Shown: piece after piece, positions 1,046-19,806 of the stretch
Position numbering within the stretch: the stretch's first letter is position 1
Layout: each line of letters opens with the position of its first letter
DNA from: Chrysochromulina tobinii
Lineage: Eukaryota; Haptophyta; Prymnesiales; Chrysochromulinaceae
Direction of reading: 5' to 3'
Length of the DNA: 23,156 bases
Assembly: GCA_001275005.1 (NCBI GenBank)
Contig: JWZX01002056.1
Span: 1-23,156 of the forward strand
Program-made: the position numbers and the translations under genes
The notes under the pieces: generated by a model
What the model was told of the DNA's origin: nothing
Databases searched by the model: none
What the model saw: only the letters and a program-made list of their open reading frames with translations

Positions 1046-2057
1046 ATGGGCGCCACTGCTCAGCGCCAAAGCGTGTGTTCGCCAAATAGGTGGTACCCGG
1101 CGGAGGTGGCCGAGAAGATGGCGGCCGACAAGGCCGCGGCAGAGAAGGCCGCGGCCGAGAGGGCAGCAACTGAGGGCATGGAGTGCAGCTTCTGGTTCGT
1201 CCACGCGGACAGCCTGCGGCGCGCTTGGAAGCCAAGCCTGCCAATGATGCAGACGCTGCGCACACAGGAGCCGCACCGACTCGTCCAGAAAACGATCGGC
1301 TTCGTCGAGGGCATCAGCGGCGCCTATAAGAACATTCTAGTCGTGAGCCATCGATGGGAGACGCCGACAGATCCAGATCCGACCGGCGCGCAGGCTTTGG
1401 CGGTGCAGGCCTACTTGAAGGCACATCCGGAGATCGACGCCGTTTGGTTCGACTTCAGCTCGATGCCCCAAGGAAGAAACAAGACTCTGAGCGAGTCCGC
1501 CGAGTTCAAAGAGATGCTCCCCAACATCAACCTGCTCTACCTGACGTGCTCCGTCCTCATTCTCATGGATCGGAGCTACATGAACCGATTCTGGACGCAG
1601 TTCGAGGCGTACCTGAGCATGCGGGCGATCACGAGCGACGGTCTGACCAACGCTCGGGATCCACAGGCGCGTGTGACCATCATGACGCTACACGGTCTTC
1701 CCGCGCTCCAGGGCAATGTGCTTCTGCTAGAGTGGTCGAACAAGACGCCTGAGGAGGCGCACGCGATCCTCGCGGGGCAGGATGTGATTGTCACCAACCA
1801 GAGCGACAAGGACATCCAGCTCGCCAAGCTCAAGGTGCTCAACGAGCGCCTCCGATTGCCGTTGATGGCCTCTGATTGCTCATGATCGACTCCGTTTACT
1901 CTGTTTCCTTTTGTATGCTCGCTAAGCTCGAGGCGCTCAAAGCGCCTCTGATTGGCCTTGGTGGTTTCTGAGTCACCTGATGACCACTGAGGACCTCCCT
2001 CATCAGGTGCTAAACGAGCGAGCCCAGCGGGCGTACGCGCGCTCTCTCGATGCCTGA
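1046..2057 (+). CDS. HET-like (SHRWE-type) domain protein, exons 1046-1834 and 2007-2057
   Basis: Seen: 279 residues when spliced. After a short Ala/Lys/Glu-rich helix (residues about 20-45) comes a domain with VSHRWETP (about residue 100), VWFDFSSMPQG (about 137) and RFWTQFEAYLS (about 180). The order SHRWE, then W-x-D-x-x-S/C-x-PQ, then R-x-W-x-x-E is that of heterokaryon-incompatibility-like domains, which are related to TIR folds and usually act in signalling or self/non-self responses. Function here is inferred only. The ATG at 1046 is the first in frame. Read without splicing, the frame ends at 1885 inside repeat filler (LMASDCS). Splicing at AAG|GTGCTC (1834/1835) and CATCAG|GTGCTA (2006/2007) gives the C-terminus KVLNERAQRAYARSLDA. 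The upstream ankyrin exons may belong to the same gene. Confidence 0.65.
1835..2006 (+). repeat. Repeat-derived intron (introner-like) in HET-like gene
   Basis: This 172-base insertion begins with GTGCTCAACGAGCG and is followed, right after its terminal CTCATCAG, by the second copy GTGCTAAACGAGCG (one mismatch in 14). Its interior holds TTGATGGCCTCTGATTGCTC, and its 3' end is GACCTCCCTCATCAG, the end shared by the other elements. It also contains a perfect hairpin at 1930-1948. Splicing is phase 0. It is the longest and most diverged member here, so probably the oldest. Confidence 0.7.
1930..1948. repeat. Perfect hairpin inside the intron
   Basis: The 8-base arms GAGGCGCT and AGCGCCTC flank a CAA loop. 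It lies in the middle of the repeat-derived intron of the HET-like gene and might bring the splice sites closer together. Role unknown. Confidence 0.5.
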
Positions 2058-2605
2058 GCCATCGATGCCGTTGAGAAGAGAAGAAAGGGTGGGGGGGTGG
2101 GGGAGGCGCCGAACATGGCGCTGAAACGAGCCTCCCAACGGGAAACGGCCGCGCTGGGGGCGACTGGGGTGGGGTGGGGAATGGAACCTACGTGGCTGGG
2201 TCGTGGTGCGAGGGCATCATGAGGCGCGGGTGCGCGGCAGACAGAGAGGGGCGGCCGGGCGCCGGGCGGGTGAGGGGAGGCCCGGAGGGTCCGAGGTACT
2301 GTACGAAAACGCGTTAAAGCAGCCTACGGCCCTACGCGTGAATACCGCGGCGCGCAGTGCGCGGTGCGCCAGGGACGCCACGATTACGTATGTCCCCCGC
2401 CCGCGCACGCTTCACGAAAAAGAATCGGCAAATTTCGCCTTCTGCATCTCCCGCCCCGTCTGAATGTCGTACTCGGCACCGCAGTCCGCACGCGCACTGC
2501 CACTGGCACGGCGACTGACGAGAGAGACTGATCTAGTCGTGCATAACACCCGCGCAAGATGTAGCCCTCGGGCATGCACGCGCTCACTCACAATGTCGTC
2601 CTCGC
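2058..2605. other. Convergent intergenic region with G-rich tracts
   Basis: Lies between the 3' ends of the HET-like gene (+) and the CAP-Gly giant gene (-). No coding sequence is supported. G-runs at 2087-2106 and 2155-2184 (GGGGTGGGGTGGGG) could form G-quadruplexes on the plus strand. It presumably holds both 3' UTRs, but no clear polyadenylation signal was recognised. Confidence 0.5.
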
Positions 2606-5600
2606 TCACACGTCGACCCCCTCCCCGTGCTCGCCCATCTCCTTGGCGAGCTCCTCCCGCAGAATCCGCCCCTCGAGCCGCTCGCGTTGCAGGCTCGCCC
2701 GCCGGCGGTGCGAGCTCTCGAGCCGCTCGCGCTGCAGCCGCGCCAGCCTGTCGATGCGCCCCTGCGCCGCGGACAGCTCGCCCTCGGTCCTGCGCCTGTG
2801 CTCCTCCGTGTCGCCTGAGGTGCGCGCGACGAGCTCGCGCGCGCGCTGCAGCGTGGCAAGGTCCTTCGGGCGTACACGTAGCTGCGACTGCTCCAGATGG
2901 CGCTGCTTCTCCGCAATCGAGTCCCGGTGCCGCTGCACGACGAGCAGCTCATCGCGCAGCCTCGCGGCCGCGGGCGAGAGCGCGGCGGCCGCCTTGGCCG
3001 CCCCCAGGGCCTTGGCCTCACGCTGCCGGCGGCGTGTCTTGATGGCGATGAGCTCCGCCTCGAGCACAGCCTCGCGACGGCGCATCGCGAGCAACTGGCC
3101 GTAGAGGTCCTCGCGTCCCGCGCCGCTCGCGCCGGACGCCAAGGCGGTGGCGGGAGGGGCGGCGCCGCCGGCGCGTGCGCTCATGGCCGTGGCGCTGGCG
3201 GCACGTCGAAGGCCGCTGGCAGCGGTGCCCGCCAGACCGATCAGACAATGTCCCTGCTGCGGCGGTTGCTCCATCGCAGTCATCGGCCTTGGGGGCAGTC
3301 GGCGACTCGAGGCTGGTCGCAGGCTGCCACGCCCGCCCCGGGCGAGTGACGCGCTCGCTCGGGCGATGGCCGCCTCTTCCTCGCGCCGGGCGACGAGCGC
3401 CTCGCGCCGCGCGCCAGCATCGTCTGTGCCAAGCCCGGGATCTCCGATGCGATCTCCGAAGCCGTGGGCCGTATCGTCCCGCAGTGCACTTGCGGCCTCG
3501 CCGAAGCCGCCGGGGGCGGCGCTGCCGGCACCGCGGGACGGATGAAGGGGCGACGCCGAGCAGCCGTCGCCGCCGTCCCTGGCGTGCGAGCTGATCCTGA
3601 GGGGGCTCGCAGGCCCCGAGGATGCGCCGCGGCGCGAGGGCGAGTGAGTGCTGGAGCTCTCGGAGGCCGAGGCGCCACGAGCGCCGCCACCAGCTGCGCC
3701 ACCTCTGCTCGCACCGGCGGCGTCGATCAGCGACGGTGGCGCGCCGTGGCCGCGGTACGTGTACGGCGAGCCTGCACGATGCAAGAGGAGTGCAATCTGC
3801 ACCCGAAGCGTATCCGACTGCTCCTTGAGCTCGGCGGCGAGCTGGTAGCTCTCCGTCGCGACCGCATGCGCCTTGCGCCGCTCGAGGTCGTCGAGCTCGG
3901 CCCGTCGCTCGAGGACGCCGCTCTCGAGCAGCTTATACGCCTTGGCAGCATCAAAGTCCTCTGCGGCGACCGCGAGACGCTTTCGCAGCACCCAGGGCAT
4001 CAGCTGCTCGTGTACGAGATGGTCGAAGCGATCGGCGCGCAGTGAGCGCAGCGCCGCCGCGCGCCGAATCTCGCGAGCGGTGCGCTGCTCCACACTCGCC
4101 GAGATCATCGCCGCGCCCAGGACTGCATGCGCCGCCCGGAGCGCGCGCTGACGGCGCCGGCGGCCGGCATAGTAACGGCCGAGGGCGCCCGCGAGATCCT
4201 GCAGCTCGGACGTGTCGACCACCTGACGAACCTGACGAGCCTGCAGCTCGGACGTGTCGACCACCTGACGAACCTGACGAGCCTGCAGCTCGGACGTATC
4301 GACCACCTGACGAACCTGACGAGCCTGCAGCTTGGACGTGTCGACCACCAGAAACGGGCGCGCCCGGCCGTCGGCCTGGCTCTTGGCACCGTGGCTCTTG
4401 GCACCGTGGCTCTTGGCACCGGGGCTCTTGGCACCGGGGCTCTTGAGCTTTGAGGGTGAGCTTTGGCGGCGCTGTGGGGAATCGGGAGGTGCGGAACGCG
4501 CGCCGTCGTGGTGCGAAGCCGCCGCCGCCTCGAGAACACCGCCGAAGAAGCCGCCGCCACCGCCGCCGCCGCCGCCGCCGCGGCCACTCTCGGCGCCCTC
4601 GACGGCGCCCACGTCGTCGAAGCCGTAGACCTCGGCTGCTCTGCTGACGGCCGCGGTAGCGTACGACGCCTCGGCACGTTCCCGCAGGATGCGCGTCGCA
4701 TGGCGTCGGCGCGCGTGCGCTTGGATTCGAGCCGCTTGCAAGTTCTCATCCGCGTTGGAGTCCGCGCCGAACCGGCCGCCGCCCCCTCGGCCGCCGCCCC
4801 CCCGGCCGCCGCCGCCGCCGCCGCGTGCGCCATTGGGGGTAGCGGGCTTGGAGTTGGCGCGCGAGCTCGCGGCCGCAGCTTTGGCGGGAGAGCGGGCGGC
4901 GCGTGCCGAAGCATCGAGCCCGGCGGCAGATGCGCGTCGAGATCCAGATCCAGATCCAGATCCAGATGCCGAAGCATCGAGCCCGGCGGCGGTGGCGAGG
5001 TTGATGGCGCCGTCCTGGACGCTGCTCGACTGGCGCGAGACGAGAGGCGTGCGAGGCTGCGAGATCGAGACGGCGAGCCCCTCGCTACTGCTGCCCTGCC
5101 GAGGGCTGAGCGTCCGAGGGGAGCGCTGGCCGCGGATGAGGGCCGCCTGCGACAAGGCGGCGTCGCCGAGCAGCCCGTCGCCGAGAAGACCGTCAGACCG
5201 TCTCGCGCCGCCGCTCGTGCGCGCCCGCCGCTCGTGGAGCTCGAGGGCGGCCCTTCGGCGGCGAGCGTGCGCTTGGATGCGCTGAGACGCGAGGGCACGC
5301 TCGCGCTCCTCGGCCGACGCCGACGCGGGATGCCCAGTACGGCGCTCGCCAGCAGCACCCGTGCCGCCGCCACCGCCATCCCCAGGGCGGTGCCCAGGAC
5401 GGCGCGTGAGCGCCGCACTGGGCCCCGCGCCGCCCTGGGCGAAGCTCTGCGCGAGCCCCGGCGATGCCTGGACTGCGCGCTCGAGCATGGCGCCGTGTTG
5501 AGCACGCGTCTCGCTCGCCGGGCGCACGAGCACGCGGCTGACCTGATGAGGGAGGCAATCAAGGGCGTCATCAGAGGTCATCAGAGGTCATCACGCCGGG

Positions 5601-8265
5601 CGCACGAGCACGCGGCTGACCTGATCGCGCTCCCGTTGCAGGGCGCGCTGCTGCAGCTGCCCCTCACGCGAGGCCGCCTGGCGCGCGCGCCGCGCCTCCG
5701 CCTCCTGCAGCGTCTCTCGCAGCTCGTTCACAGAGCTCACGTCCTGTGCGGGCTGGGCGGTGCGCACTGGATGCAGCGTGCCCCAAGTCTCCCATCCACG
5801 CTCCCTAGACTCAGCTACGGCCACACGGTCCTCGGCGGCGCTCATGACCGCGTTCGAGCGCGCACGCGCGCCACGGCTGGCTGCCTGCACGCTGGTGGCC
5901 GCGCGCTCGGCGCGCGTCTGTTGCTTCGACGGACGGAGGACGCGCGTGCTCATGAGCGCTCGCCAGCGCGCCTGCACCTTGGTGACGAGTGCCACCACGC
6001 GCAGGTAGCCCGGGCTCGAGTGCATCGGCGGACCGAGCCGCTCCGGATCGTGCAGCACGTGCCTCACCTGCGTCGCGCTGCCCCGCCCATCGAGCTTGAT
6101 CAGATGCTTGAGCGTGAGCGGCTTGGCGCCAAAGTAGCCGTGGAAGTGCACGGTGACCCGTGCCGCGAGCGCCGAGCCCATCGGCAGGTGCGTCTTCGGA
6201 TTGTCTGGGTTGACCAGCACCGCGTTGCAAGGGGGCAGCCCGCACACGCGCAGATCGATCTTTTCCTTGGCGCGCCCCTTGAGACCGACGAGGGTCACCT
6301 GCTGTGCGAGAGTGTACCAAGCGCTGTCGGCGCGCGGGATCGCCCTCGAGGGCCGGCCGTTCTTAAGCAGCATGGCGTCGCGTCCCTTGATGAGGACCTG
6401 GTCGCCAGGGGTGAGCAGCCCCGTCTTCGAGACCACTTCAAATGGAGCCTGGTGAGCGGTACGGAAGAGCATCGGGACGCGGATATCGTTGCCCACATCG
6501 AAGATGACCTTGCTGATGACGATCGGCTCCGAGGCCGTCACGGCGAGGGTCCACTCGCCCGAGACGGCGTCCGAATCATGGCCGACGGTCAGGATTGAAT
6601 GATGGCGGCCCTCCTCATCGAGCGTCACCTGATGAGGGACGCAATCAGACGTCATCAGAGGAGCCATCAGACGCAATCAGGATCGAATGATGGCGACCCT
6701 CCTCATCGAGCGTCACCTGCGGCGGCATCACAAAGTCATCCGCGAGCTGCCTGTACTCGGTGTCGTCGCGCGCCTTCTTGGCGCGGACCATTGCCTGCAG
6801 CCGGATCGCAAGACGCACCGCAGGGTCCACAAATCTCGCTGGCATGCCCGGCGCGCCGAGCGCCTTCAAGCCGGCGCCGCCGACCCCAGCGCCGGCAACG
6901 AGGGCGCCTCCGGCCGGCGCGTTGATCTCGTCGTCCCCCTCGGCCTCGGACATGCCAAACGAGGCGCCATCGCCGTCGGTCTCGTCACTCGACATGCCCA
7001 TGTCGACATCGAGGGGGTCGCGCGCCCCCTGCACCCGCCGCGGCTGCTCGAGGCGCGCCCGGGACGGCGGCACGAAGACGCCATGCCGGGGCTCGCACTT
7101 GAAACAGCGCAGGTCACCCTTGGCGTAGTACCCGTCATGATGGCCGAGGGGCCGATCGAGGGCCACGCCGAGAAACACCGCACCACTCGTGTCCAGCTGC
7201 CCACGCCAGCAGCACAGGCCACGAAGCAGACCCTTGTGCCCCTTGAGCAGCACCTCGACACGCATCATCGTCCGCAGCTCCGGCTTGCGCCGCGACTTGG
7301 CGCCTCGGAGGACCGCTTGCACGCGCCGCGCGGCGGCCTGCGTTTCTTCGCTGCGCGGCAGCGTCGAGGCCGAGGCGCGCGCTGTGGCGAGCACTTGCAT
7401 GCGAGGCTGCGTTTCTTCGCTGCGCGGCAGCGTCGAGGCCGAGGCGCCACGTGCCTGGGAGGAGGAGGCGGCGACCGTGGGCGGGCGCACCCGGCTGCTC
7501 TGGACCGTCTGCCGCCTCCCGCCCGCGGCCGCAGACAGCCCGCCTCCTGCCTCGTCGCCCTCCCCCTCGCCCTCCCCCCCATCCTCCCCCCCATCCTCCT
7601 CCTCCTCGACTTGGAAAAAGTTCGTCTTCTTCTTCTGTGCGACTTGGTCGCGTGCGCCAAAGTCGAAGGACGCATCGTCGAAGGGGTTGGTCGAAGACCT
7701 CGCACGCTGTGGCGCCGCCGCCGCCGCCTTGCCCACTGCCGCGCGCTCGGCCGCCGCCTTGTTCGCTGCCGCCTTCTCCGCCGCCGCCCGCTCGGCCTCT
7801 GCCATTTCCCCAGCAACACGCTCGGCCGCGCGCCGCTGGTCCTTGACCTTTTGTTCCGCCGCCCGCTGCTCCGCCGCCCGCTGCGCAGCCAGTTCCTCTG
7901 GCGAGAGCGAGAGCGGCAGCGGCTGCTTGGCCGTCGGCGCCGCGCTCGCCACGGCGCTCGAGCGCGACAGCGGCTGCTTGGCCGTCGGCGCCGCGCTCGC
8001 GACGGCGCCACCCACCGCTTGCTGCCTTTGCACCGTCGCGAGCTCGTCGGGGCTGAGCGCATGTCCTTCCTCGACCAAGTACTTGCGCACGTCCCAAAGC
8101 ATGCGCTTGCGTCGCACCAGGTCGCCGCGCTGGTAGTCGGCGTCGATGCTCTCAACTGCCTCGCTTGGCAGCTTACGTGTGGAGAGCATCCACTCGGCGT
8201 CGAGCGCTCCACGTGTCGGCTGCCACTCATCGAAGCGAGCCTGATCCCGCGGCGTGAGTGGCTCG

Positions 8266-8314
<49 letters not shown>

Positions 8315-10761
8315 GCCCGACCGCGCCGCCGATGGCCTTCTGGGCGGCGGAGGCCTCCTCGGCGGCGAGCCGCTCCGCCTCAAGTCGCGCGGCCTCCTCA
8401 ACGGCCGCTTGGCGAGCCTTGCGCGCCTCGACCGCCTGGCGCACCGCATCCTTGTTCCCGCTGACCACCGCACCTGGCGGAGGCCCGCCTACATACGGTC
8501 CCGCCCGACGCGCCCCTCCCAATGCGGCAGCACGACGGGGAGACGTCGCGCCGGTCGCGGGCTTGGCGGTGGCGGTGGCGGCGGGCTTGGCCGTCGCCGT
8601 CGCAGCGCTCGCCACAGCGCTGGCCGCCGCTGGCTTGGCCGTTGCCGTTGCCGACCTGGCAGTCGCGGCAGCAGGTCTGGCGGCTGCCGTGGCTGTCGCG
8701 GCGGCAGGTGTGGCAGTCGCGGCAGCAGGTCTGGCGGCCGCCGTGGCAGGTTTGGCGGCCGCGGTAGCAGTCGCGGCGGCAGGCGTGGCAGTCTCCGCCG
8801 CGCTCGTCGGCTTCGCAGCGGCCTTCGAGATGATTTGCGTGACGGACGCCGTGATCGTTTGCACGCCCGCAGGCTCCGCAGGCAGCGTGCGCCGCGCCGC
8901 CTCTGCCGGGGTCGCCGCACGCGCTTTGACCGTCGTCAGAGCCGTCGCCGTCGGCTTGGCGCCCCCGTCAGAAGCGGCAGAGGCAGCCGTCGCCGGGGTG
9001 GCGGCCGAGGCCGGTTTGGCGCTCGCCGCAGTCGCAGTCGCAGGCCGCGCAGCTGAGGCCGTTGCCGTCGCTGGCCGCGCCACCGCTGCTGTCGCGGCAG
9101 CAGGCTTCACGCTCGCACTGTCGGTAGGAGGCGTGGCGGAGGCCGTTGCTGTCGCGGCGGCAGGTGTGGCAGTCGCGGCAGCAGGTCTGGCAGCTGCCGT
9201 GGCAGTCGCGGCGGCAGGTGTGGCAGTCGCGGTGGCAGGTCTGGCAGCTGCCGTGGCAGTCGCGGCGGCAGGTGTGGCAGTCGCGGTGGCAGGTCTAGCA
9301 GCTGCCGTGGCTGTCGCGGCGGCAGGTGTGGCAGTCGCGGCAGCAGGTCTGGCAGCTGCCGTGGCAGTCGCGGCGGCAGGTGTGGCAGTCGCGGCGGCAG
9401 GCTTGGCGGCCGCGGTAGCAGGCCGCGCAGCTGAGGCCGTTGCCGTCGCTGGCCGCGCCACCGCTGCTGTCGCGGCAGCAGGCTTCACGCTCACACTGTC
9501 GGTAGCAGGCGTGGCGGAGGCCGTTGCGGTCTCGGGCTTGGCAGTCGCCGCCGACGCCGTCGAAGCCGCCGCGGTGGGCTTTGCTGCCGCAACCGCCGAA
9601 GCAGCTGCAGGGGCGGCCGCTGACTTCGCGGCAGCAACCGCCGGCTGAACAGCTGCGGCCGCCTTGGTGCCTGATGCACACGATGCATTCGAGGCTGCCA
9701 CAGCTGGAGCGGCCGTGATCGTTTGCACGCCCGCAGGCTCCGCAGGCAGCGTGCGCCGCGCCGCCTCTGCCGGGGTCGCCGCACGCGCTTTGACCGTCGT
9801 CAGAGCCGTCGCCGTCGGCTTGGCGCCGCCGTCAGAAGCGGCAGAGGCAGCCGTCGCCGGGGTGACGGCCGTGGCCGGTTTGGCGCTCGCCGCAGTCGCG
9901 GTAGCAGGCCGCGCAGCTGAGGCCATTGCCGTCGCCGTTGCCGCTGTCGATGCTGTCGCAGTGGCCGCCGCTGCTGGCCGCGCCTCGGCCGTTGTCGCGG
10001 CCGTCGCCGTCGCTAGCAGGTCGTGCAGCTGCCACCGCCGCAGGTCGTGCGGCCGCTGCCGCCGCCGGTTGTGCGGCTGCTGCCGTCGCTGTGGCCGCCG
10101 CTGCTGGCCGCGCTTCGGTCGTGGTTGCGGTCGTTGCCGATGCCGCAGGTCGTGCAGCTGCCACTGCCGCCGGTCGTGCGGCTGCTGCCGTTGCCGTGGC
10201 CGCCGCCGCTGGCCGCGCTTCGGTCGTGGTTGCGGTCGTTGCCGATGCCGCAGGTCGTGCAGCTGCCGCCGCCACCGGCTGTGCGGGCGCAGCCCTCGGC
10301 GTGGTGGCAGCCGCCCCTTCAGCCGCCGTCGCTGGCCGCGCGGTCGCCATGACGGCGGGGCGAGCTGCTGCGATAGCGGTCGCCGGACGTGCGGCAGCCA
10401 CAGCCACTGTGGGGCGTGTCGAGGCGGTTGAGGCGTCACTGGCCAGCGATTCCGCTGCTGCTTCCGACGGCACGATGCTAGGGCGAACGGCGGCCGCGGG
10501 AGGGCGAGCAGCAGCAGTGGACGCGCAGCGGTCCACTAGCGCTGGGTGTGCCGCGGCCACCGCCACAGCCGGGCGCGCATCGGCCACTGCCGCAGCCGGG
10601 CGCGCCGCCGCCACCGCCGCAGCCGGTCGCGCCGTCGCCACTGCCGCAGCTGGGCGCGCCGCCGCCACTGCTGCAGCTGGGCGCGCCGCCGCCACTGCCG
10701 CAGCTGGGCGCGCCGTCGCCGTCGCCACGCGCGCAGAGGGTCGCTCTGGGTCGTCTGCCAT
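2606..10761 (-). CDS. Giant CAP-Gly / IQ-motif / coiled-coil protein, three exons, one frameshift
   Basis: Seen: exons 10761-6717, 6628-5621 and 5542-2606 join in phase 0 at CAG|GTGACG and CAG|GTCAGC, giving about 2,662 residues. From the ATG at 10759-10761 (MADDPERP): Ala/Pro/Thr low complexity to about residue 800; a poly-Asp run (about 817-831); an Ala/Lys/Glu coiled coil (about 950-1020); a lone NPF motif; an IQ motif (VQAVLRGAKSRRK); a CAP-Gly domain (about 1170-1238) with PLGHHDG in place of the usual GKNDG and a clear HGVFVPPS end; more IQ-like motifs near 1320, 1565, 1595, 1775 and 1960; an unrecognised beta-rich segment (about 1360-1540); a UVR/CEP104-like helical pair (about 2195-2265); and a C-terminal coiled coil. 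CAP-Gly binds tubulin/EB C-termini and IQ motifs bind calmodulin, so a microtubule or basal-body role is inferred. One extra base near 10012-10018 breaks the first exon. The exact start is uncertain. Confidence 0.7.
4199..4350 (-). repeat. 42-base coding tandem repeat (VVDTSELQARQVRQ, about 3.6 copies)
   Basis: Copies begin at 4199, 4241, 4283 and 4325 (last one partial). Differences are single bases. In the coding orientation each unit contains two CAGGT words, GTCAGGTTCGTCAGGTGG, so the tract is dense in possible exonic splice junctions. It remains in frame in the giant CAP-Gly protein. Confidence 0.85.
4376..4446 (-). repeat. 15-base coding tandem repeat (SPGAK / SHGAK)
   Basis: The unit GGCTCTTGGCACCGT or its GGGG variant is repeated about 4-5 times on the plus strand, encoding GAKSH/GAKSP pentapeptides in the minus-strand giant protein. 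This is a simple low-complexity expansion. Confidence 0.8.
5543..5620 (-). repeat. Repeat-derived intron (introner-like), intron 2 of the giant gene
   Basis: On the minus strand the 78-base element starts GTCAGCCGCGTGCTCGTGCG, runs into TGATGACCTCTGATGACC filler, and ends TTGATTGCCTCCCTCATCAG. The exon resumes with the same GTCAGCCGCGTGCTCGTGCG. The duplication is 27 bases after the splice site, plus a shared ATCAG before it, with no mismatch. Splicing is phase 0, giving ERDQ-VSRVLVRPA-SETRA. Reading through without splicing hits a stop at once (RPA then TGA). Confidence 0.8.
6629..6716 (-). repeat. Repeat-derived intron (introner-like), intron 1 of the giant gene
   Basis: On the minus strand this 88-base element starts GTGACGCTCGATGAGGAG, ends GATTGCGTCCCTCATCAG, and is followed by a second copy of the same 40-base stretch (two mismatches, at about 6670-6700 versus 6590-6610). 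The filler is ATTGCGTCTGATGGCTCC followed by TCTGATGACGTCTGATTGCG. Splicing is phase 0 (MPPQ-VTLDEEGRHHSIL-TVGHD). Read-through ends at a TGA within the filler. Confidence 0.8.
8851..9067 (-). repeat. Large direct repeat, copy A (partner at 9715-9931)
   Basis: About 217 bases recur at an offset of 864 bases with roughly six mismatches by eye (about 97% identical). Both copies are in frame in the giant protein and encode the same unit, which includes LPAEPAGVQTITA and GGAKPTATALTTVKARAATP. This is a recent internal duplication that lengthened the Ala-rich region. Confidence 0.85.
9140..9415 (-). repeat. Tandem of about 60-base Ala/Thr/Pro coding units
   Basis: About four copies of a 60-base unit built from GTGGCAGTCGCGG and GGTCTGGCAGCTGCCGTGGC words encode AAATATPAAATATAAARPA-type peptides in the giant minus-strand protein. 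Copies differ by one or two bases, so slippage or unequal exchange is likely. A separate ~100-base repeat flanks the tract (about 9045-9145 and 9422-9524). Confidence 0.75.
9715..9931 (-). repeat. Large direct repeat, copy B (partner at 8851-9067)
   Basis: Second copy of the 217-base unit. Mismatches include GCCGCCGTCA versus GCCCCCGTCA and ATTGCC versus GTTGCC. The copies diverge abruptly after about base 9931. Confidence 0.85.
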
Positions 10762-10985: not shown

Positions 10986-12965
10986 ATGGGCCCCATGGAG
11001 ACGCTGCTCCTAGCAATCTCTGGGCCCGTGCTGACGCGCATCGGGCCGCCCGTGGCGCAATGGGCTGTCGAGGGTCTCATTGGAGCGAGCAAGCGTGCGA
11101 TGCTCCCCTTCGCGCACGCCTTCGCTCTCGCCAGCGTGCCCCAGCAGCGGTGCCGTGGCCACCTGACGAGCACGCTAATCTTGCCGGGTGCGCCAGTCTC
11201 GGTGAGCTGCACGGAGCGCAATGTCCTGCCACCTGCGCGGTTCGACCCTACCTTGGCTGTGCTCGTCGGCCTCGCGCTCTGTGCTCTTGGAGTCGTTGTC
11301 CACGCGCGGCACATGGCGCGGGCGCTGCGCCGAGCCGAGGCCGAGAACAGCGCAGCCACTCGCCTGCAAAGCCTCTCGCGCATGAGGCGCGCGTGCCTCT
11401 TCCTCCGCCGGTGCTGCGACGCCGTGCTGCGCCTCCAAGCGGCATGCCGTGCGCGCGCCGCCATCACGGCAGCGGCGGCAACCACCATCCAAAAGGAGGC
11501 GAGGCGATTCATCGCGTACACCGCGTACACGGCCATGCTCGGCGCGGCGGTGCGGCTGCAGAGTGCGGTACGCCGCTGGCGCGTCGGCGGCTACGCGGCG
11601 GCCGCCGCCGACGCGCGCTCGCTCGTTCGTGGCGAACTCTCCGCCGCACACGCGTCGCTCAGCCGTCGGATGCTCGCTGTGGTGCGCCTCGAGACGGCGG
11701 CGCGCAGGCTCGAGGCAGGCTGCTGCGTCGAGGCGGCGCTGAAGCTGACGCGCATCGGGCGCGGCCACCTGGCGCGCGTGCACGTGGCCCAGCTGCGCGC
11801 AGCGCGTGCCGCCAAGCACGCGGCCGTTACCAAGGCTCATCAGCACGCGGCCGTTACCAAGGCTCATCAGCACGCGGCCGTTACCAAGGCTCATCAGCAC
11901 GCGGCCGTTACCGAGGCTCATCAGCAAGCCTCGCTCAAGGATGCGGCCTACCGGCGCACGACTGGCCGCGGCCGTCATGTGGCCGTCTCGCGCCTCGTCG
12001 AGCCGCGGGAGGCGCCGTACCGGCAGCTCAACTTCTCGCCCTCGCCCGCTAGCGCGCCGCTGCCGCCGGTCGTGCACGGAGCTGTTGTCGGCCCGCGGCT
12101 GCCCTCGCCACTGACGCCCTCGCCGCTAGCGTCCTCGCCGCTGGCGCCCTCGCCACTGACGCCATTGCCGCTGGCGTCCTCGCTGCTGGCGCCCTCGCCA
12201 CCGCCGCGCATGCGGCGCTCCTCGACCTCGCTGACGAAACCCGCGACCACGCTGACGAATCCCGCGACCACGCTGACGAATCCCACGACCACGCTGACGA
12301 AACCCGCGACCACGCCGGCCGCGCCGGCAGCCTCGCCAGCGCCGGCGTATGTGGCGGCGAGCCCGACAGTTGTCACCACGGCGGTCGCATGTCCTGTGAC
12401 CAGCGCCACGGAGGCGCCGCCCGCCACGACGCCCGCGCCATCCGCGCTGCCCGCGCCGCCCACGCTTCCGCCAGTGTCGAGTGCGGAGAGAGCGCTCACG
12501 CCGCCGACGGCGCGCAGCGCATTGATGCCGCCGCCGCTGGTGCTCGCGCCGCCGCCGCCGCCTCCAATGGCTTCGGTCAAGCTCGCGCCACCTCCCATCA
12601 TTGGAGTTGCTCCGCCGCCGCCACCGCCCTCGGAACCCGCGCCGCCGAAGCCGAAACCGCCGTCGCCGCCTTCACGGCGTCGCGGCCCGCTCGTGTCGCT
12701 CTCCCCTACCCATCAGGGGTCCCATCGGGCTTCAAACAGGCCGACGGTGGAGGCACTCCAATCGGCGATCCTCAAGCCGGTGGGTGCGTCGAAGAGCGCT
12801 CGGGACAGCGCTCGGGACCCCGCGCCGCCGACGTCTCCCCCCAAGAGCAGCAGCGGCGGTGGCGGCATTCTGAACGAGCTGCATAAGCGCATCCTTTCGC
12901 GCCGCTCGTCGATCGGGTCGCCCGAGGCGGCCGCCGAGGAGGAGCAGGGCGAGATGCGCATCTGA
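10986..12965 (+). CDS. Membrane-anchored IQ-motif, proline-rich protein
   Basis: Seen: 659 residues from the ATG at 10986 (MGPMETLLLAIS). An in-frame ATG at 10890 exists, but it lies in AT-richer, non-coding-looking sequence. A hydrophobic segment (LAVLVGLALCALGVVVHA, residues about 88-106) is a likely single membrane helix. Several IQ-like helices follow (about 118-215: TRLQSLSRMRRACLFLRR, TIQKEARRF, VRLQSAVRRWRV). Then come four 9-residue repeats HAAVTKAHQ (about 278-313), SPLTPSPLAS repeats, four TLTKPATT repeats, and a formin-FH1-like polyproline zone (about 500-565). The C-terminus has LQSAILKPVG and ILNELHKRILSRRSS helices and an acidic tail. IQ motifs bind calmodulin and polyproline often binds profilin or SH3, so a calcium-responsive membrane-to-actin link is inferred. 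The whole family is unrecognised. Confidence 0.65.
   Translation: MGPMETLLLAISGPVLTRIGPPVAQWAVEGLIGASKRAMLPFAHAFALASVPQQRCRGHLTSTLILPGAPVSVSCTERNVLPPARFDPTLAVLVGLALCALGVVVHARHMARALRRAEAENSAATRLQSLSRMRRACLFLRRCCDAVLRLQAACRARAAITAAAATTIQKEARRFIAYTAYTAMLGAAVRLQSAVRRWRVGGYAAAAADARSLVRGELSAAHASLSRRMLAVVRLETAARRLEAGCCVEAALKLTRIGRGHLARVHVAQLRAARAAKHAAVTKAHQHAAVTKAHQHAAVTKAHQHAAVTEAHQQASLKDAAYRRTTGRGRHVAVSRLVEPREAPYRQLNFSPSPASAPLPPVVHGAVVGPRLPSPLTPSPLASSPLAPSPLTPLPLASSLLAPSPPPRMRRSSTSLTKPATTLTNPATTLTNPTTTLTKPATTPAAPAASPAPAYVAASPTVVTTAVACPVTSATEAPPATTPAPSALPAPPTLPPVSSAERALTPPTARSALMPPPLVLAPPPPPPMASVKLAPPPIIGVAPPPPPPSEPAPPKPKPPSPPSRRRGPLVSLSPTHQGSHRASNRPTVEALQSAILKPVGASKSARDSARDPAPPTSPPKSSSGGGGILNELHKRILSRRSSIGSPEAAAEEEQGEMRI
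11817..11924 (+). repeat. 27-base coding tandem repeat x4 (HAAVTKAHQ)
   Basis: Four units of CACGCGGCCGTTACCAAGG followed by CTCATCAG start at 11817, 11844, 11871 and 11898. The only visible difference is A to G in the fourth (TEAHQ). Each unit ends in CTCATCAG, the same octamer that ends the repeat-derived introns of this window. Confidence 0.9.
12107..12316 (+). repeat. SPL-x and TLTxPATT coding microsatellite-like repeats
   Basis: Bases 12107-12203 are an imperfect 15-base period (CCCTCGCCGCTGGCG type) encoding SPLAPSPLTP. Bases 12228-12316 are about four 21-base units (ACGCTGACGAAACCCGCGACC type) encoding TLTKPAT. Both are in the Pro/Thr-rich part of the IQ protein and may be glycosylated or disordered. 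Confidence 0.75.
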
Positions 12966-13861: not shown

Positions 13862-15784
13862 GCGGCCATCGAGCGGCGGCAATCATTAAAGGCCGCTGCC
13901 GAGGAGCGCGTGCGCACCGCCGTCGCGACGGAGCGTGCTCGGCGAGAGGCAGAACAGGTTGCGGAGCGCAAGAAGCGCCGCGTGAAGGACGTGCTGGCCC
14001 TCGCTGACAAAGGGGCGATGGGATCCCTCTTCCAGATGTGGGATCGGGATGGCAGCGGCTTCATCGATCGCGAGGAGTTTCGAGAGCAGGTCACGATCCT
14101 GTGCCGCGAGCATGGTTTTGAGGTCTCCGACGAGGCGCTCGAGCTCACGTGGGCCGACTTTGACCTCGACGGCTCCGGAACAGTGACCTACGAAGAGTGG
14201 CTGCGCATCACGCTGCGCGACCTGCTCGTGCAGGGCAACATGCGTATCATGGAGGCGTTCCGTGCGTGGGACCGCGACTTTTCGGGCACCATCGACAGGC
14301 GCGAGTTCTGCGACGCCCTCTGCACCCTCGGCTTCGACGCGCCGCGCGTGCTGGTCGAGGAGGTGTTCGATTCGATGGATCGCGACGGTTCGGGTGCCCT
14401 GAGCTTCGAAGAGCTGAATAAGCAGCTGCGACAGGGCAGCGCGGTACGCGGGCGGCTCGACGACGCCCTCCACGCTGGCCAGGTCAAACTGGACACCAGC
14501 CGCTCCTTTAAGAACGCGTTGCGCAAGAGCCCCGGCGGCGGCGGCGTCTTTGGCAGCGGCGGAGGCGGCACCGGGGCTTCGAGCCTGGTGGCACAGTTGA
14601 AGCGCCACATCCAGACAACGGCCGACAGCGAGCCGCGAGGCAACGCCACACCAGCCGCGCCCCAGCCCGCGCCCCAGCCCGACCTCCCTCAAGAGACGAA
14701 TCTTTGGGTCTTACGGATGCTCGCAAGTGTCGGACCACGGCAAGCCGCCTCGATACGGCACACTGCGGTCAATGACGACCACACGACGCTGGCGTCGGCG
14801 GTGGCCTCAAATGCGGCCGCGGCGGCCTCCGCCTCGGCCGCGATGCACGCACGCAGCGCGGCACTCGCGGCGGCCACTGCTGTGCGATCTCGGCAGAAAG
14901 CGACCACGCCACAGCATCTGATCGACTTGCTCGACAGGACCGCGCCGTTGCCGCCCGCTAAGGCGCCCTCACCGGTTTGGCCGCCGAGTGCTCCAACAGT
15001 GATACGGCCACCAAGCGCGCCGGCAATGCTGGGGTCTTTCCGGTCTTCGGCCTCCATGCAGAGCTTGCAGAGCTTGCAGAGCGCTTTGACTGAGGAGGAC
15101 AGTCCCGCACGCCATCAGCCCAGCCGCACCAGCCTGCGCCGGAGCGCGTCCAGCGGCATGCTCAGCGGTACGCGCAGTAGCGCGCCCGGCACGGCGCTGG
15201 GCAGCCGCGAGAGCCGCGGCGCCTTCGTTGCCAACGGTAGCTCGCCACGTGGCAGTTCGCAATCAGAGGTCATCAGAGGCGCTCAGCTCAGCTCGCCACG
15301 TGGCAGCTCGCCCCCTTCGCGGCCGAGCCTGCCTTCTACCACGATTCAGAAGAGACCGGATGCCATGACCCCGTTTCTGGTGCCGGACGCGCGCAAATTG
15401 TGTCGGCAATCAAGCCTCATCTCGTCGTGGACCATTGGAGGCCCTGGGCAGTCGAGCCTCACAGCCCATGACCATGATTTGCGACACGCGACGCTGCCGC
15501 CACCGGCAAGTGCCGTCGCTGCAGCGGCGGGTGGGCGCCTGACGAGGATCCAAGCGCGCATCGGGCCCGCTACGTGCTTGATTGTGCCCAAGGTGACGGA
15601 GCCGCATCGCAGCATCGACGAGAACGGGATGGCGTGCTGGGTGCGCCAAGGGACATACAGCGATGCAGCGATGGCGCTCCCGGGGGCAGGCGTGGTCGAA
15701 TCCTCGCAAGATCCTCGCAGGAGGGGCCCGATCCTCGCAAGGTACTCGCAGAAGGGGTACGACCGCCTCCCGCCGCGAAGTTGA
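13862..15784 (+). CDS. Calmodulin-like protein with four EF-hands and long disordered tail (5' end incomplete)
   Basis: Seen: four canonical 12-residue loops, DRDGSGFIDREE (14042-14077), DLDGSGTVTYEE (14162-14197), DRDFSGTIDRRE (14270-14305) and DRDGSGALSFEE (14378-14413). All keep acidic positions 1, 3 and 12, so four calcium sites are expected. A charged helix (RARREAEQVAERKKRR) precedes them. A Ser/Ala-rich, probably disordered tail of about 450 residues follows, with KSPGGGGVFGSGGG and repeated SSPRGSS. The open frame begins after an in-frame TAA at 13844, and there is no ATG before 14018, so translation must come through a splice at TTGCGCAG|GCGGCC (13861/13862) or start at 14018 (MGSLFQMW). 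I infer a missing upstream exon. The last 25 residues after 15700 come from CCTCGCA repeats, so the 3' end may also be spliced differently. Confidence 0.75.
   Translation, partial: AAIERRQSLKAAAEERVRTAVATERARREAEQVAERKKRRVKDVLALADKGAMGSLFQMWDRDGSGFIDREEFREQVTILCREHGFEVSDEALELTWADFDLDGSGTVTYEEWLRITLRDLLVQGNMRIMEAFRAWDRDFSGTIDRREFCDALCTLGFDAPRVLVEEVFDSMDRDGSGALSFEELNKQLRQGSAVRGRLDDALHAGQVKLDTSRSFKNALRKSPGGGGVFGSGGGGTGASSLVAQLKRHIQTTADSEPRGNATPAAPQPAPQPDLPQETNLWVLRMLASVGPRQAASIRHTAVNDDHTTLASAVASNAAAAASASAAMHARSAALAAATAVRSRQKATTPQHLIDLLDRTAPLPPAKAPSPVWPPSAPTVIRPPSAPAMLGSFRSSASMQSLQSLQSALTEEDSPARHQPSRTSLRRSASSGMLSGTRSSAPGTALGSRESRGAFVANGSSPRGSSQSEVIRGAQLSSPRGSSPPSRPSLPSTTIQKRPDAMTPFLVPDARKLCRQSSLISSWTIGGPGQSSLTAHDHDLRHATLPPPASAVAAAAGGRLTRIQARIGPATCLIVPKVTEPHRSIDENGMACWVRQGTYSDAAMALPGAGVVESSQDPRRRGPILARYSQKGYDRLPPRS
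15239..15311 (+). repeat. Antisense, in-frame relative of the introner-like elements
   Basis: Two 22-base copies of AGCTCGCCACGTGGCAG followed by TTCGC or CTCGC (15239-15260 and 15290-15311, one mismatch) flank 29 bases containing AATCAGAGGTCATCAG, the reverse complement of the CTGATGACCTCTGATT filler. The period is 51 bases (17 codons), so the reading frame stays open and encodes SSPRGSS twice. Splicing is not needed. Confidence 0.7.
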
Positions 15785-16048: not shown

Positions 16049-16993
16049 CTAGGCGTGTTTCACACGCAATGAGAATATATTTTCGGCCGGTTCCCATTTT
16101 GTTGCAAGCATGGCATCTGCGAGCTCACCCACATCGGGGATGTAGACTGCGCCTCTCGGCAGCGTGAAGCTGGTGCTGTGCACATGTTGGCAGGCGGCAA
16201 TTTCCTTGTGGTGGTCACAGAAAGATGCACGGCCGGAAAAGAAGCTGTAGTAGTGCCGTTGAGAAAAGATCGAGCTGAACGTTTCCAGCCCAAATGCTCG
16301 GGAGACGTTGGCTTGCGCCCATTTACTGGGCGTCAGCTCCCAAAGCACGACGTTGATGGCCCCGCGCTTGAACAGTGGAATTGCGGATGCGAGCACACGC
16401 ACCTCGTGTCCCTCCGTGTCAATCTTGAGCATCATGATATCGCTACCATCTTCGCTCGCCCAACGCAGAACCTCAGTGAGAGGAGCAGCACGGGCGTGCG
16501 TCGTCGTAGCATGATCCGTGTCGCTCCAGCTTCCCACGTGTCGACGAACTTCACTCCTGGAGCCCACTTTGAAATATGGCGAGCACATATGGGTAGGCAC
16601 GCGAAAAGTGAAGTACGCGTCAGACACTCCACTGTGAAACACCGCCAAGCGTGACGGCTGAAAGTAATTATCCGCGGCTGAGCCTCTGGTGTCTTGCACG
16701 CATGTTGGCAATGGGTCTGCAGCAATACAGCGGTGCCCGAGCGAGGCCATGATCAGAGAGTAAAGGCCGCAATTTGAGCCAACGTCGACAAAGAGGCCGG
16801 CACCGTGGTCTAATCGGTGCCTCAACGCCAGCTGAATGGCCACACGCACATCATCCTGCTCATACTTGAGAGTGTTGCGTGGGTTGCAGTGAGCCGCTCG
16901 AATGGTGAACCACCAGTTGGGTGGCAAGCCAGCGGCGGGAATATCTCTGCTGGTAATATTCACACTCTTCGGAGGCAGAGACGTTGAGTGCAT
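16049..16993 (-). CDS. FkbM-family SAM-dependent methyltransferase
   Basis: Seen: 314 residues from the ATG at 16991-16993 (MHSTSLPPKS); a GTG two codons upstream is not a plausible eukaryotic start. Motif I is FVDVGSNCGLYSLIMASLGH (residues about 68-87), followed by an acidic strand end (AADP), and later MMLKIDTEGHEVRVL (about 187-201), the signature IDTEGHE block of the FkbM (Methyltransf_21) fold. The family transfers methyl groups from S-adenosylmethionine, typically to sugar or polyketide hydroxyls; the substrate here cannot be told. No membrane helix or signal peptide is evident. It appears intronless, and three lines counted by hand gave 50-65% GC, lower than the flanking genes, which suggests a different history, possibly transfer. 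Length is normal for the family. Confidence 0.85.
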   Translation of the reverse strand: MHSTSLPPKSVNITSRDIPAAGLPPNWWFTIRAAHCNPRNTLKYEQDDVRVAIQLALRHRLDHGAGLFVDVGSNCGLYSLIMASLGHRCIAADPLPTCVQDTRGSAADNYFQPSRLAVFHSGVSDAYFTFRVPTHMCSPYFKVGSRSEVRRHVGSWSDTDHATTTHARAAPLTEVLRWASEDGSDIMMLKIDTEGHEVRVLASAIPLFKRGAINVVLWELTPSKWAQANVSRAFGLETFSSIFSQRHYYSFFSGRASFCDHHKEIAACQHVHSTSFTLPRGAVYIPDVGELADAMLATKWEPAENIFSLRVKHA

Positions 16994-17281
16994 GCACACG
17001 CAGTTCGGCCCGCAGCTAGGGACCTAACGACGGCAAGGCCAGCAACCCCGCGCGGTTTCGGCACTCATGACGGAGACCGACCTCGGACGCGCTATTTGTA
17101 CCGGTACGACGCGTACCGGTAGAATAACCGCACAGTGTGTGAATGTGAACGTGTGTGAGTTGATTTCTAACACACGGCACACAACTCCATGTTCAAGATC
17201 GACATCACCGGAACAATGCGCGAAACCGTTGACGCTGTGCCCGAAACTTAGTTGGCGCGAGCGCGACGCACGCCGGCGAAC
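16994..17281. promoter_or_regulatory. Divergent promoter region, FkbM gene (-) and GNAT-SET-Agenet gene (+)
   Basis: These 288 bases separate two divergent start codons. They hold the paired palindromes at 17098-17122 and an AT-richer stretch with GTGTGTGA and TGTGAATGTGAACGTGTG (about 17136-17157). No coding sequence is supported. Confidence 0.5.
17098..17122. promoter_or_regulatory. Twin palindromes TACCGGTA, 15 bases apart
   Basis: TACCGGTA occurs at 17099-17106 and again at 17114-17121. The first is extended to GTACCGGTAC. The two centres are 15 bases apart, about one and a half helical turns. It sits between divergent genes, so it may be a dimer-type transcription factor site. No factor is assigned. 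Confidence 0.5.
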
Positions 17282-19806
17282 ATGAACAATGCCAGTCGTG
17301 AGGCGCGGGCGCGCGCCAACGTGTCGTACGTCGAGCCGGACGAGGACGAATTCCTTGCCCCGAACAAGAGAGCCGCGCCGCCGCAAAAGGACGAGGACGT
17401 CTCGCGCAAGTCGAGCCGCGTCGACCCTCGCAAGACGTCGCCGCTGGACGTGCTGGCATGCGCCGAACGCGTGGTGCCGGGTGGTCCGGGGCTCACCTAC
17501 ACAGTGGGCGGCGCGGAGGCGGGTGGCATCGACGCTGAGCGTGTGCTGCGCGAGGTCGAGATCGACGACGCCGCGCTAAACCTCACTGGGCAGTTTCTGG
17601 TGTGCCGGCGCATCGTGCTATTCCGGAGCGGCCGCGTGGTGGCCGCGGCGGTCTTCGAGCTGCACGCGACCGCCAACGTGCTCGAGATCCCCATCTTCGC
17701 CTCGTCACGCGCCCACCGCCAGCAGGGTAACGGCTCCGTGCTGCTCGCGCTGCTCGTCGAGCTCGCCGTGCGCCACCTGAATGCGAAAGTGGTCGTCGTC
17801 TCCGCCACTAATGAGAGCCGGCGCTTCTGGCTGAGCATGGGCCTGCACGTGGCTGCCCACTGCCCGCCGCCCGTCTCCGCCGCGCTCCGCTACCTCAAGG
17901 CGCACGGCTACGTCGCCATGGGCTTCTACTCCTCGACGACGCAGATGGCGAAGGCTTTACCGCCCGCGGTGAGCGAGGCTGGAGAGCTCGTCAAGATGGC
18001 TCTGCAGCGCGCCGCCTCGAAGACGACCAAGTCGCGCGATGGGCTCTCGGCCGCGCGCGTCGCCGACGTCCTTGGCTACACCGACCTCGCCGCCGGCACC
18101 CCCTCCTTTGTCCTCGAGCGCGCGAGCGGGGCGCGTGTGCCCCTCGGGTACGGCGCAGCGGGCGCGCGCCAGAGCGGGGTGCAGCCGTGGCGGCTGCAGG
18201 CCTTCGAGCGGACCGAGGGGGGCGGGGCGGGCGTGGGCGTGAGCGGCTGGGGCGAGCCCGGCTGGGGCGTCCGCTGCTCCACCGCCCTCGAAAAGGGCCA
18301 GGTCGTCGTCGAGGTGACCGGTGAATGGCTCAATGAGGAGGCACACAAGAGCCGCACGGACGTTCGGTTCATGCTCCCTCTCGATGACAAGACAGCGCGG
18401 CGCGAGGGGGTGGCGCCGACCTTCTTGGACCTGCGCGAGGCGGGCTCACTCGCGCGCCTCGTGTCCGTGTGCGTCGAGGCGCCCAACCTCGAGCTCCTCC
18501 TTATCCCCACAGGGGTGGCCGCGCCCATGCCCGCGCCCCTGATGCCCGCGCCCATGCCCGCGCTGCCGCCGCCCGCCGCCTCGACCGAGGGCGCGACGGC
18601 GGAGGCGGCTGAGGGCGATGTGCCCATGACGGATGGCGCGGCGCCGGAGACTGCCTCCTCTTCAGCTGCGGTGATGCATGCGCTCAATGCAGCGCTCGAG
18701 GACGCACCCGTCGTGGCAGCGCCCGCAGCGCTACCGGCACCGGCGCCGGCGCCTCCGATGCCCATGCCAGTGCTTACCACGGCGTCGGCGCCTCCGATGC
18801 TGGTGCGAGCCTACTTGGTGGCACGCCATGACATTCCTCCTATGGTCGAGTTGACGTGGGCGGGGCCGAGTGGCCACACGGCTCGCCAGTCCGTGTCCTC
18901 GGCCAAAGCAGCCGACGCCGCCACCGCCGCCGCAGCCGACGAGACGCCGGACGCCATGGCGGCCGAGCCTGGCAAGCTCGCGTACCTCGCGCGCGCCGCT
19001 GCCTGCGAGGTTCGTCAGCACGAACCCGGCCTCAAGGGGAATGATTGCATGCTGATTGCATGCTGATTGCATGCTGATTGCATTCTGATTGCATGCTGAT
19101 TGCATGCTGATGGCCTCCCTCATCAGGTTCGTCAGCACGAGCCCGGCCTCAAGGGTGCGTATTTCGGCGGGCGCCGCATGACTGGCGTGCGTGGCGACGG
19201 GCTCGTGCGAGTGCAGTATGCGACGCTGTATGAGTCGACGGTCTCCGACGCGGCCCTGGTCGAGTGGATCAAGCCCTTTGATGACGACCACGTATGGCAT
19301 CTGATGGCATCTGATTGTCTCCCTCATCAGCCCTTTGATGACGACCACGTATGGCATCTGATGGCATCTGATTGCCTCCCTCATCAGCCCTTTGATGACG
19401 ACCACGTATGGCATCTGATGGCATCTGATGGCATCTGATTGCCTCCCTCATCAGCCCTTTGATGACGACCACGTATGGCCGGAGCCGCCCGCTGATTGCA
19501 TCTGATGGAAACTGATGGCATCTGATGGCATCTGATTGCCTCCCTCATCAGGTACGGCCGGAGCCGCCCGCGCCGCCGGATGGCTTCCACAGCCGACTGG
19601 TGGTGGATGACGAGGTCGAGGTATGGTACGAGGCGGGCTGGTGGCCAGTGCGCGTGCGCGCGCTCCTGCCCAACGCCCTCGCCATCGAGGTGGGCAGCGA
19701 CGCCTTCGCCGGCCTCTGCCGGCGCGTCAACTTCGCGCACATCCGGCCACGTTGGCGATGGCGCGGCGCCGAGGCGGGATGGCTTCAGCTCACCCACCCC
19801 GCCTGA
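17282..19806 (+). CDS. GNAT + SET-like + tandem Agenet chromatin-type protein (exons 17282-19009, 19127-19291, 19552-19806)
   Basis: Seen: 715 residues when spliced, all junctions phase 0; the ATG at 17282 is the first in frame. Residues about 80-215 form a GNAT-like acetyltransferase fold, with VVAAAVFELHA, the acetyl-CoA loop HRQQGNGSVLLALL, and ATNESRRFWLSMGL. Residues about 310-530 resemble a SET domain: GWGVRCSTALEKGQVVVEVT, SLARLVSVCVEAPNLELLLI, a Pro/Ala insert of about 100 residues, then AYLVARHDIPPMVELTWAG. The NHSC motif and the DYG tyrosine of active SET enzymes are absent, so it may be inactive. The spliced C-terminus gives two Agenet/Tudor-like modules: GLKGAYFGGRR to LVEWIKPFDDDHVRPEPP, and DEVEVWYEAGWWPVRV to FAHIRPRWRW. 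Agenet domains bind histone tails. A nuclear chromatin reader/acetyltransferase is inferred. The domain order recalls plant GNAT chromatin factors, but the fusion is not one I know. Confidence 0.65.
19010..19126 (+). repeat. Repeat-derived intron (introner-like), intron 1 of the GNAT-SET gene
   Basis: This 117-base element starts GTTCGTCAGCACGAACCCGG, then carries about six 11-base CTGATTGCATG units, and ends GGCCTCCCTCATCAG. The exon continues with GTTCGTCAGCACGAGCCCGG. The duplication is 29 bases with one mismatch. Splicing gives ACE-VRQHEPGLKG-AYFGG in phase 0, while read-through hits a stop (LIAC then TGA). Confidence 0.85.
19274..19551 (+). repeat. Tandem array of introner-like units (intron 2 of the GNAT-SET gene)
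   Basis: CCCTTTGATGACGACCAC occurs at 19274, 19331, 19388 and 19455, each followed by GTATGG. The first three are followed by CATCTGATGGCATCTGATT filler and CCTCATCAG, with periods of 57, 57 and 67 bases. The fourth runs into GTATGGCCGGAGCCGCCCG, more filler and CCTCATCAG, then the exon copy GTACGGCCGGAGCCGCCCG at 19552. Removing 19292-19551 restores the Agenet frame (FDDDH-VRPEPP). Smaller introns of 39, 39, 49 and 79 bases are also possible, which would leave 18-base exons encoding PFDDDH. Confidence 0.85.

Follow-up and report, generated by a model that had tools for sequence, protein, structure and literature searches.

Introners are mobile elements that generate introns; those of Micromonas pusilla and Aureococcus, which Huff et al. 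are said to have described in 2016, reportedly caused intron gain on a genome scale, carry short duplications, derive from DNA transposons, and take one splice site from duplicated gene sequence. Here, we analyzed a stretch of 23,156 nucleotides (nt) from the haptophyte Chrysochromulina tobinii (contig JWZX01002056.1; hereafter, the window), where a set of similar predicted introns interrupts three genes; they very probably belong to an introner family with about 4,600 copies of its core in the genome. The closest described case is that of Symbiodinium microadriaticum, whose introners have 4-bp duplications and terminal inverted repeats; in the excerpts considered, the same survey gives introner target duplications as 3–9 bp and, for Chrysochromulina sp., reports target duplications and no inverted repeats (PMC9860276).

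The initial annotation had placed five elements in the window, and all of them were found; the word CCTCATCAG, which forms their end, occurs exactly at eight sites, all within these elements (1998, 19118, 19322, 19379, 19446, and 19543 on the plus strand; 5543 and 6629 on the minus strand). Introner 1 (1835–2006, plus strand, 172 nt, in gene 1, with the core ending at 2006) is bounded by a 14-nt duplication with one mismatch (1835–1848/2007–2020, checked base by base). On the minus strand, introner 2 (5543–5620, 78 nt) has an intronic copy (5620–5594) identical to the exonic one (5542–5516) in 27 positions out of 27, and introner 3 (6629–6716, 88 nt) has two copies (intronic 6716–6677, exonic 6628–6589) that agree in 38 positions out of 40. 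Introner 4 (19010–19126, plus strand, 117 nt, core end at 19126), whose body is a tandem of the 11-nt unit TGATTGCATGC, is flanked by a 29-nt duplication with one mismatch (left copy 19010–19038, right copy 19127–19155). The fifth (19292–19551, plus strand, 260 nt) had been taken for one element; an element is indeed present, but in the form of an array of four units, i.e., three near-identical ones with the 25-nt duplication CCCTTTGATGACGACCACGTATGGC, followed by one with a duplication of its own (19473–19492/19552–19571, 20 nt, one mismatch, starting with GT). The exon stretch CCCTTTGATGACGACCAC (19274–19291, plus strand), which represents the start of the 25-nt duplication, is found again downstream of units 1, 2, and 3.

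In each of the five window duplications checked base by base, the duplicated copy begins with GT. The proposal that the exon duplication starts at the splice site holds for introners 1 to 4 and for the last unit of array 5, but not for the first three units of the array, whose duplication begins at CCC (19274), preceding the predicted splice site by 18 nt. This shows that the duplication need not start at GT.

A further place in the window resembles these elements in part. At 15239–15306 (plus strand), a 17-nt direct repeat, AGCTCGCCACGTGGCAG (15239–15255 and 15290–15306), was seen by eye to flank a 34-nt antisense body-like stretch without the CCTCATCAG end; the repeat spacing of 51 nt leaves the frame of an EF-hand gene open, and this may be an insertion tolerated as coding sequence.

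The genome assembly (G000; 53.15 Mb in 2,253 contigs, the window being contig C982) was searched with words taken from the elements and with the same words reversed. The 20-nt 3' core, CTGATTGCCTCCCTCATCAG, was retrieved 4,604 times with up to three mismatches, versus once for its reversed control; the counts are 3,915 versus 144 for CCTCATCAG, 1,567 versus 1 for TCCCTCATCAGGT, and 947 versus 0 for TTGCCTCCCTCATCAGG. The genome-wide search for the end word, which the initial annotation had put forward as a test able to overturn its proposal, left it standing. Among the 120 matches listed for the lysyl-tRNA synthetase of this genome, the top one with a named organism belongs to the haptophyte Scyphosphaera apsteinii (70%), while green algae reach up to 63%; a haptophyte source is accordingly probable from this protein.

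The elements were characterized in a sample of 246,617 bases, consisting of 20 stretches (up to 10 kb each, from contigs with hits), 20 short stretches centered on hits, two loci, and the window. The places were drawn from the first 100 of the 1,567 matches listed for TCCCTCATCAGGT, and the sample is biased in favor of hits and, apart from the window, of contigs numbered C172 or lower; among eight loci taken from the genome-wide TCCCTCATCAGGT search, two are in the sample and six were left out (five overlap stretches already fetched, L003 does not). This sample harbors 222 sites of the form C[CT]CATCAG, 147 of which have the strict form CCTCATCAG; the latter are followed by GT in 109 cases, by GC in 17, and by another dinucleotide in 21.

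The consensus of the 147 copies is CTGATTGCCTCCCTCATCAG, followed in the exon by GTGCG; the search itself dictates the final nine bases of the intron, and the core consensus starts with CTGAT and ends with ATCAG. The order of the parts is the following: a copy of the host exon that begins with GT (9–42 nt), a body of CTGAT repeats, the core, and the second exon copy. The body is made up mostly of tandem 10- or 11-nt units containing CTGAT, and the unit varies by locus; in the 34 bodies long enough for the test, the best periods were 10, 11, 20, and 22 in 12, 6, 5, and 4 cases, respectively. Introns with a single unit are 66–101 nt long in 34 cases out of 46 and shorter than 66 nt in five. The length of the duplication is anticorrelated with that of the body (rho −0.54, n = 46, and −0.42 when only the 37 not exceeding 100 nt are taken), which we read as the mark of a minimum intron size and not of a mechanism. 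Whole units (exon copy plus element) stand in tandem at L016, L012, L019, L010, and L022, as well as at 19292–19551 in the window, and CATCAG directly precedes 16 of 50 left copies.

Taking a score of at least 9 as a simple exon duplication, this was present in 47 of the 109 copies followed by GT, in 3 of the 17 followed by GC, and in 5 of the 21 others. In the 47 GT cases the length varies continuously from 9 to 42 nt and the left copy also begins with GT in 45 of them; the median over 34 non-nested duplications is 22 nt. The position of the duplication was then analyzed through the best local duplication with a score of at least 12, which was found at 74 of the 147 strict sites and at 14 of 155 control positions. 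The control skips positions near any CATCAG and is thus unmatched for arrays; it replaced an earlier null, based on random AGGT sites from the same loci, which was contaminated by arrays and in which long duplications were common too. A duplication flush with CAG (offset 0) occurs at 27 strict sites and at none of the 155 controls, and no other offset occurs more than four times. Besides these 27, the 74 best duplications include 18 at offsets from 2 to 13 and 29 farther off. Inspection by eye of the 18 assigned 13 to flush duplications with altered first bases or cut by the filter, two to shifted ones, and three to non-flush ones (L014-3978, L014-6408, and L017+8544).

The 45 single-unit duplications have a mean identity of 96%, with 20 of them exact; of their 1,093 duplicated bases, 39 are mismatched. 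Together with the 0–2 mismatches of the window duplications, these data fit, in terms of sequence divergence, the suggestion that the elements may be very young. The duplication at L049+494 (44 nt, followed by GC, spanning body repeats) lies outside the range of 9–42 nt and is within the counts of 45, 46, and 50 elements. At L014-3978, L049+494, and L049+626, the duplications lie off the post-CAG base or include body repeats, and would represent complex or older events.

The elements are predicted to be spliced out as introns. Fifty elements that have both a duplication and the strict 3' end were considered for a frame test; 23 were usable (180-nt flanks on both sides and no other CATCAG within 150 nt), and the remaining 27 did not enter it. 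Six window frames served to train the codon table, and three elements of these frames also belong to the 23. The frames predicted independently for the two flanks agree after removal of the element in 21 cases out of 23, versus 10 out of 23 without removal, and in 13 out of 13 where both flanks have clear margins; furthermore, the sense strand scores higher in 22 of the 23. The statement that removal restores a phase-0 frame is true of the five window elements, while the 21 frame-consistent elements of the wider sample comprise 16 in phase 0, two in phase 1, and three in phase 2. Under a phase-0 reading, retention would cause a stop or a frameshift in 47 of the 50 elements. As regards orientation, 90 of the 147 strict sites have clean 150 nt downstream, and these divide into 48 in sense, 4 in antisense, and 38 of unclear orientation, against 273, 285, and 655, respectively, for background positions.

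Of the five window junctions, three are crossed without interruption by protein relatives, which may be DNA- or RNA-derived: P0124 (58% identity) has no insertion at the 5543–5620 junction, and P0121 (66%) and P0122 (46%) are gapless through both junctions of gene 3. No relative spanning the 6629–6716 junction without the intron was found. Similar introns stand at unrelated sites of one genome, their status as introns resting on the frame test, and insertion into exons with the protein unchanged on removal is seen in 21 of 23 frames and at three window junctions. The core count of 4,604 versus 1, the duplications after CAG, the 21 agreeing frames, the sense bias of 48 to 4, and the uninterrupted relatives lead us to explain these elements by the multiplication of an introner, in line with what had been proposed from the window.

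The bodies of neighboring elements were also compared, with arrays collapsed (88 elements from 147) and pairs with similar following exons excluded. On the same strand, bodies at least 75% alike were found in 7 of 31 pairs within 1.5 kb, in 3 of 17 at 1.5–3 kb, and in 0 of 30 at 3–10 kb; the corresponding figures are 155 of 3,728 for pairs between loci and 0 of 14 for same-locus pairs on opposite strands. When the elements were shuffled among positions, the count in the nearest class was reached in 1 of 2000 trials and the mean in none of them. L016 contains the same 39-nt insert twice, at a distance of about 500 bp, and the duplications differ between the two places (34 and 27 nt).

We prefer local copying, at nicks or staggered breaks, to a cut-and-paste movement because of the continuous range of duplication lengths (9–42 nt) and of the sharing of bodies between neighbors on the same strand. 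An existing copy, often a neighbor in the same gene, would serve as the donor for a copy inserted at a nick or staggered break, and the fill-in of the stagger would duplicate 9–42 nt of exon. The 5' splice site would be the GT that opens the intronic exon copy, co-opted from the duplicated exon; the element, in turn, would supply the 3' splice site and branch-point-like motifs, with the CTGAT repeat, which we take to resemble a branch-point motif, acting as the branch site. With CAG ending the intron, the mRNA would remain unchanged, and retained copies, which would usually bring stops or frameshifts, would be expected to impose selection for splicing. Arrays would grow, at least partly, through the duplication of whole units.

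As for the route of spread, we see slightly less than an even chance that it is the repair of DNA breaks or template switching, with a nearby copy as the source. A more tentative possibility is spread in cis, in which copies of the intron (possibly tails of excised RNA, reverse transcribed at nicks) would be rewritten into the same gene with the duplication of 9–42 nt; if true, this would be an intron factory driven by RNA or by repair, with no classical transposon. The present data do not separate DNA template switching from the reverse transcription of intron tails.

The RNA alternative can be worded more precisely, as a retro-introner: once excised, the intron RNA, which has exactly CAG at its 3' end, would be reverse transcribed from a target nick, copying would stop near the branch-point-like CTGAT, and a variably placed second cut would give the long exon duplication. 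We regard it as possible, though clearly on the doubtful side. It agrees with the sense bias, with the same-strand local sharing of bodies, and with the variable duplications with a constant 3' end, a trait shared with target-primed retrocopies of the long interspersed nuclear element (LINE) type and not exclusive to them. It also agrees with the inserts that start at CTGAT, which are 17 of 45 versus 9.2 in simulations from random starts, at least 17 being reached in 6 of 2000; uniform 5' truncation was rejected on this count. In itself the excess is neutral: copying that stops at a branch point would produce it, and so would microhomology or inverted ends of the element. Moreover, a LINE-like open frame (Exo_endo_phos, RVT_1, RNase_H) is present at C1295:1–5000 (L061), and the genome has 26 RVT_1 matches; yet, no core was found at a retroelement end in nine stretches (5 of the 26 RVT_1 hits, one 3' flank, and three partial relatives), a weak negative in that most 3' ends are uncovered. 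Several reverse transcriptase frames run off their stretch, the frame of C1295 reaches the contig end, and the single core among these stretches (L063) lies downstream of the retroelement, apparently in another gene. A retro-introner would also require extra slippage for the locus-specific body repeats, and what is likely an antisense, core-less insertion at 15239–15306 suggests insertion at the DNA level. In the literature searched, "introner" and "target-primed reverse transcription" co-occur in one paper, where the passages considered have the latter only in the title of a reference; such a route may already be described by Huff 2016 or by a 2025 article in PNAS that deals with functionally diverse introners.

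The elements might instead be non-autonomous DNA transposons resembling miniature inverted-repeat transposable elements, with CTGAT(GA)/(TC)ATCAG as their short inverted ends; a transposase would then move them, as it does the introners of Micromonas, Aureococcus, and Symbiodinium. The two ends of the core and the excess of CTGAT starts would suit this explanation, and inverted ends of 5–8 bp were seen in some copies only (7–8 bp in some at L013 and L010, by eye). We nevertheless consider it unlikely, in that cut-and-paste transposases give duplications of near-fixed length, and the short (3–9 bp), near-fixed target duplication of transposons with terminal inverted repeats was not found here. 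According to the excerpts of the survey, published introners of this type do take one splice site from the target duplication, but with 3–9 bp where the present ones have 9–42 nt (PMC9860276). Very improbable is a tandem exon duplication according to the AGGT model of Rogers, combined with slippage of a CTGAT microsatellite and without any mobile element; exon copies flanking the introns and a repetitive body would be expected from it, but it is contradicted by the shared core, since the same 20 nt are found at thousands of places, beside different exons in the sample, and AG precedes the left copy in only 9 of 34 non-nested cases. An artefact of assembly or binning could be suspected in a genome fragmented into 2,253 contigs, but we give it almost no credence: P0125 (98% identical), from a Joint Genome Institute (JGI) contig, reads into the 6629–6716 intron much as the window does, so that this element is not an artefact of the present assembly, and the sampled elements are mostly in coding context, with distinct duplications. 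A viral origin was also considered, the 16-mer TTGCCTCCCTCATCAG matching nine IMG/VR stretches; none of the matches is followed by GT, no CTGAT array was seen by eye in the 120 nt preceding them, and they look like chance.

Some points weigh against introner multiplication by local copying. The mobilizing machinery was not found, and no search aimed at transposases was made; some transposons hop locally, and the sharing of bodies may partly reflect gene conversion or segmental duplication. The CTGAT start is only about two-fold enriched and would also suit an element with inverted ends. The likely antisense insertion at 15239–15306 speaks for a DNA-level event and against a purely RNA route. 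At the threshold used, a simple duplication was not detected in 62 of the 109 GT-followed and 14 of the 17 GC-followed copies, owing to decay, to arrays, or to other causes; among the former are arrays, long bodies, and, probably, copies that have decayed. A duplication is also present in 5 of the 21 copies followed by other dinucleotides, and GT is therefore dispensable for insertion. Finally, the sample was picked for hits, on low-numbered contigs, and splicing is deduced from splice signals and frames.

Regarding the host genes, the frame of gene 1 (1037–2057 from stop to stop, plus strand), which has no Pfam match, contains introner 1 near its 3' end; it stays open over the junction and meets a stop 16 codons further on. 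Gene 2 (2606–10535, minus strand) becomes an open frame of 2587 residues once introners 2 and 3 are removed. It overlaps a long minus-strand coding region of Ala/Thr/Pro-rich tandem repeats (8572–10740), in which an apparent frame change between two overlapping open frames was noted near 10010. Gene 3 (17282–19806, plus strand) gives a single frame of 715 residues on removal of introners 4 and 5; its match to IDM1_C (30.6 bits) is below the Pfam cut-off of 33, and its relatives P0121 and P0122 carry PF05641 and PF23209.

Two other plus-strand features of the window were noted. An ordinary-looking intron at 182–267 (GTAAGC...TTTGTCTTTAG), apparently in an ankyrin-type stretch (by eye), is unlike the introners and suggests that the genome also has introns outside this family. 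At 11815–11930, four 27-bp tandem copies of AGCACGCGGCCGTTACCAAGGCTCATC lie in a coding frame and look unlike members of the family, despite containing GCTCATCAG.

The origin of new introns is an old question, and the sharing of bodies between neighbors makes a mechanism of copying in cis testable; moreover, many of these introns keep both exon copies, so that the insertion site, the stagger length, and the donor can be read across a family of thousands. Compared with the introners of Micromonas pusilla and Aureococcus, as these are reportedly built, the present elements differ in their long, variable duplications. As in Symbiodinium microadriaticum, the element carries the 3' splice site and the target duplication gives the 5' one; unlike there, in the survey excerpts, the duplications are of 9–42 nt, the body is a variable satellite, and inverted ends of 5–8 bp occur in some copies (PMC9860276). 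The AGGT model of tandem genomic duplication of Rogers shares with them a duplicated exon piece that supplies GT and leaves the protein unchanged, but involves no repeated element family in the part of that account considered (PMC4974935). The introner elements of Amoebophrya are likewise repeated introns with direct repeats at their boundaries; they differ, in the passages at hand, by direct repeats of 3–5 nt and inverted repeats of 8–20 nt, and were defined among introns with non-canonical splice sites (PMC7789003). The published survey, in its excerpted methods, asked for similarity that starts close to the two ends of the intron and filtered out families of low complexity (PMC9860276). Elements like the present ones, whose long 5' ends come from the host and whose bodies are repetitive, would therefore tend to escape it, and intron gain of this sort may be under-counted.

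That the element gives one splice site and the host duplication the other is known. The long, variable duplications are the unusual part of the finding with respect to the accounts excerpted here, and go beyond what the initial annotation had pointed out. It is plausible that these elements represent a separate introner family; what distinguishes them from the introners described in the accounts considered is the combination of long, variable duplications, a satellite-like body, and the sharing of this body between neighbors on the same strand.

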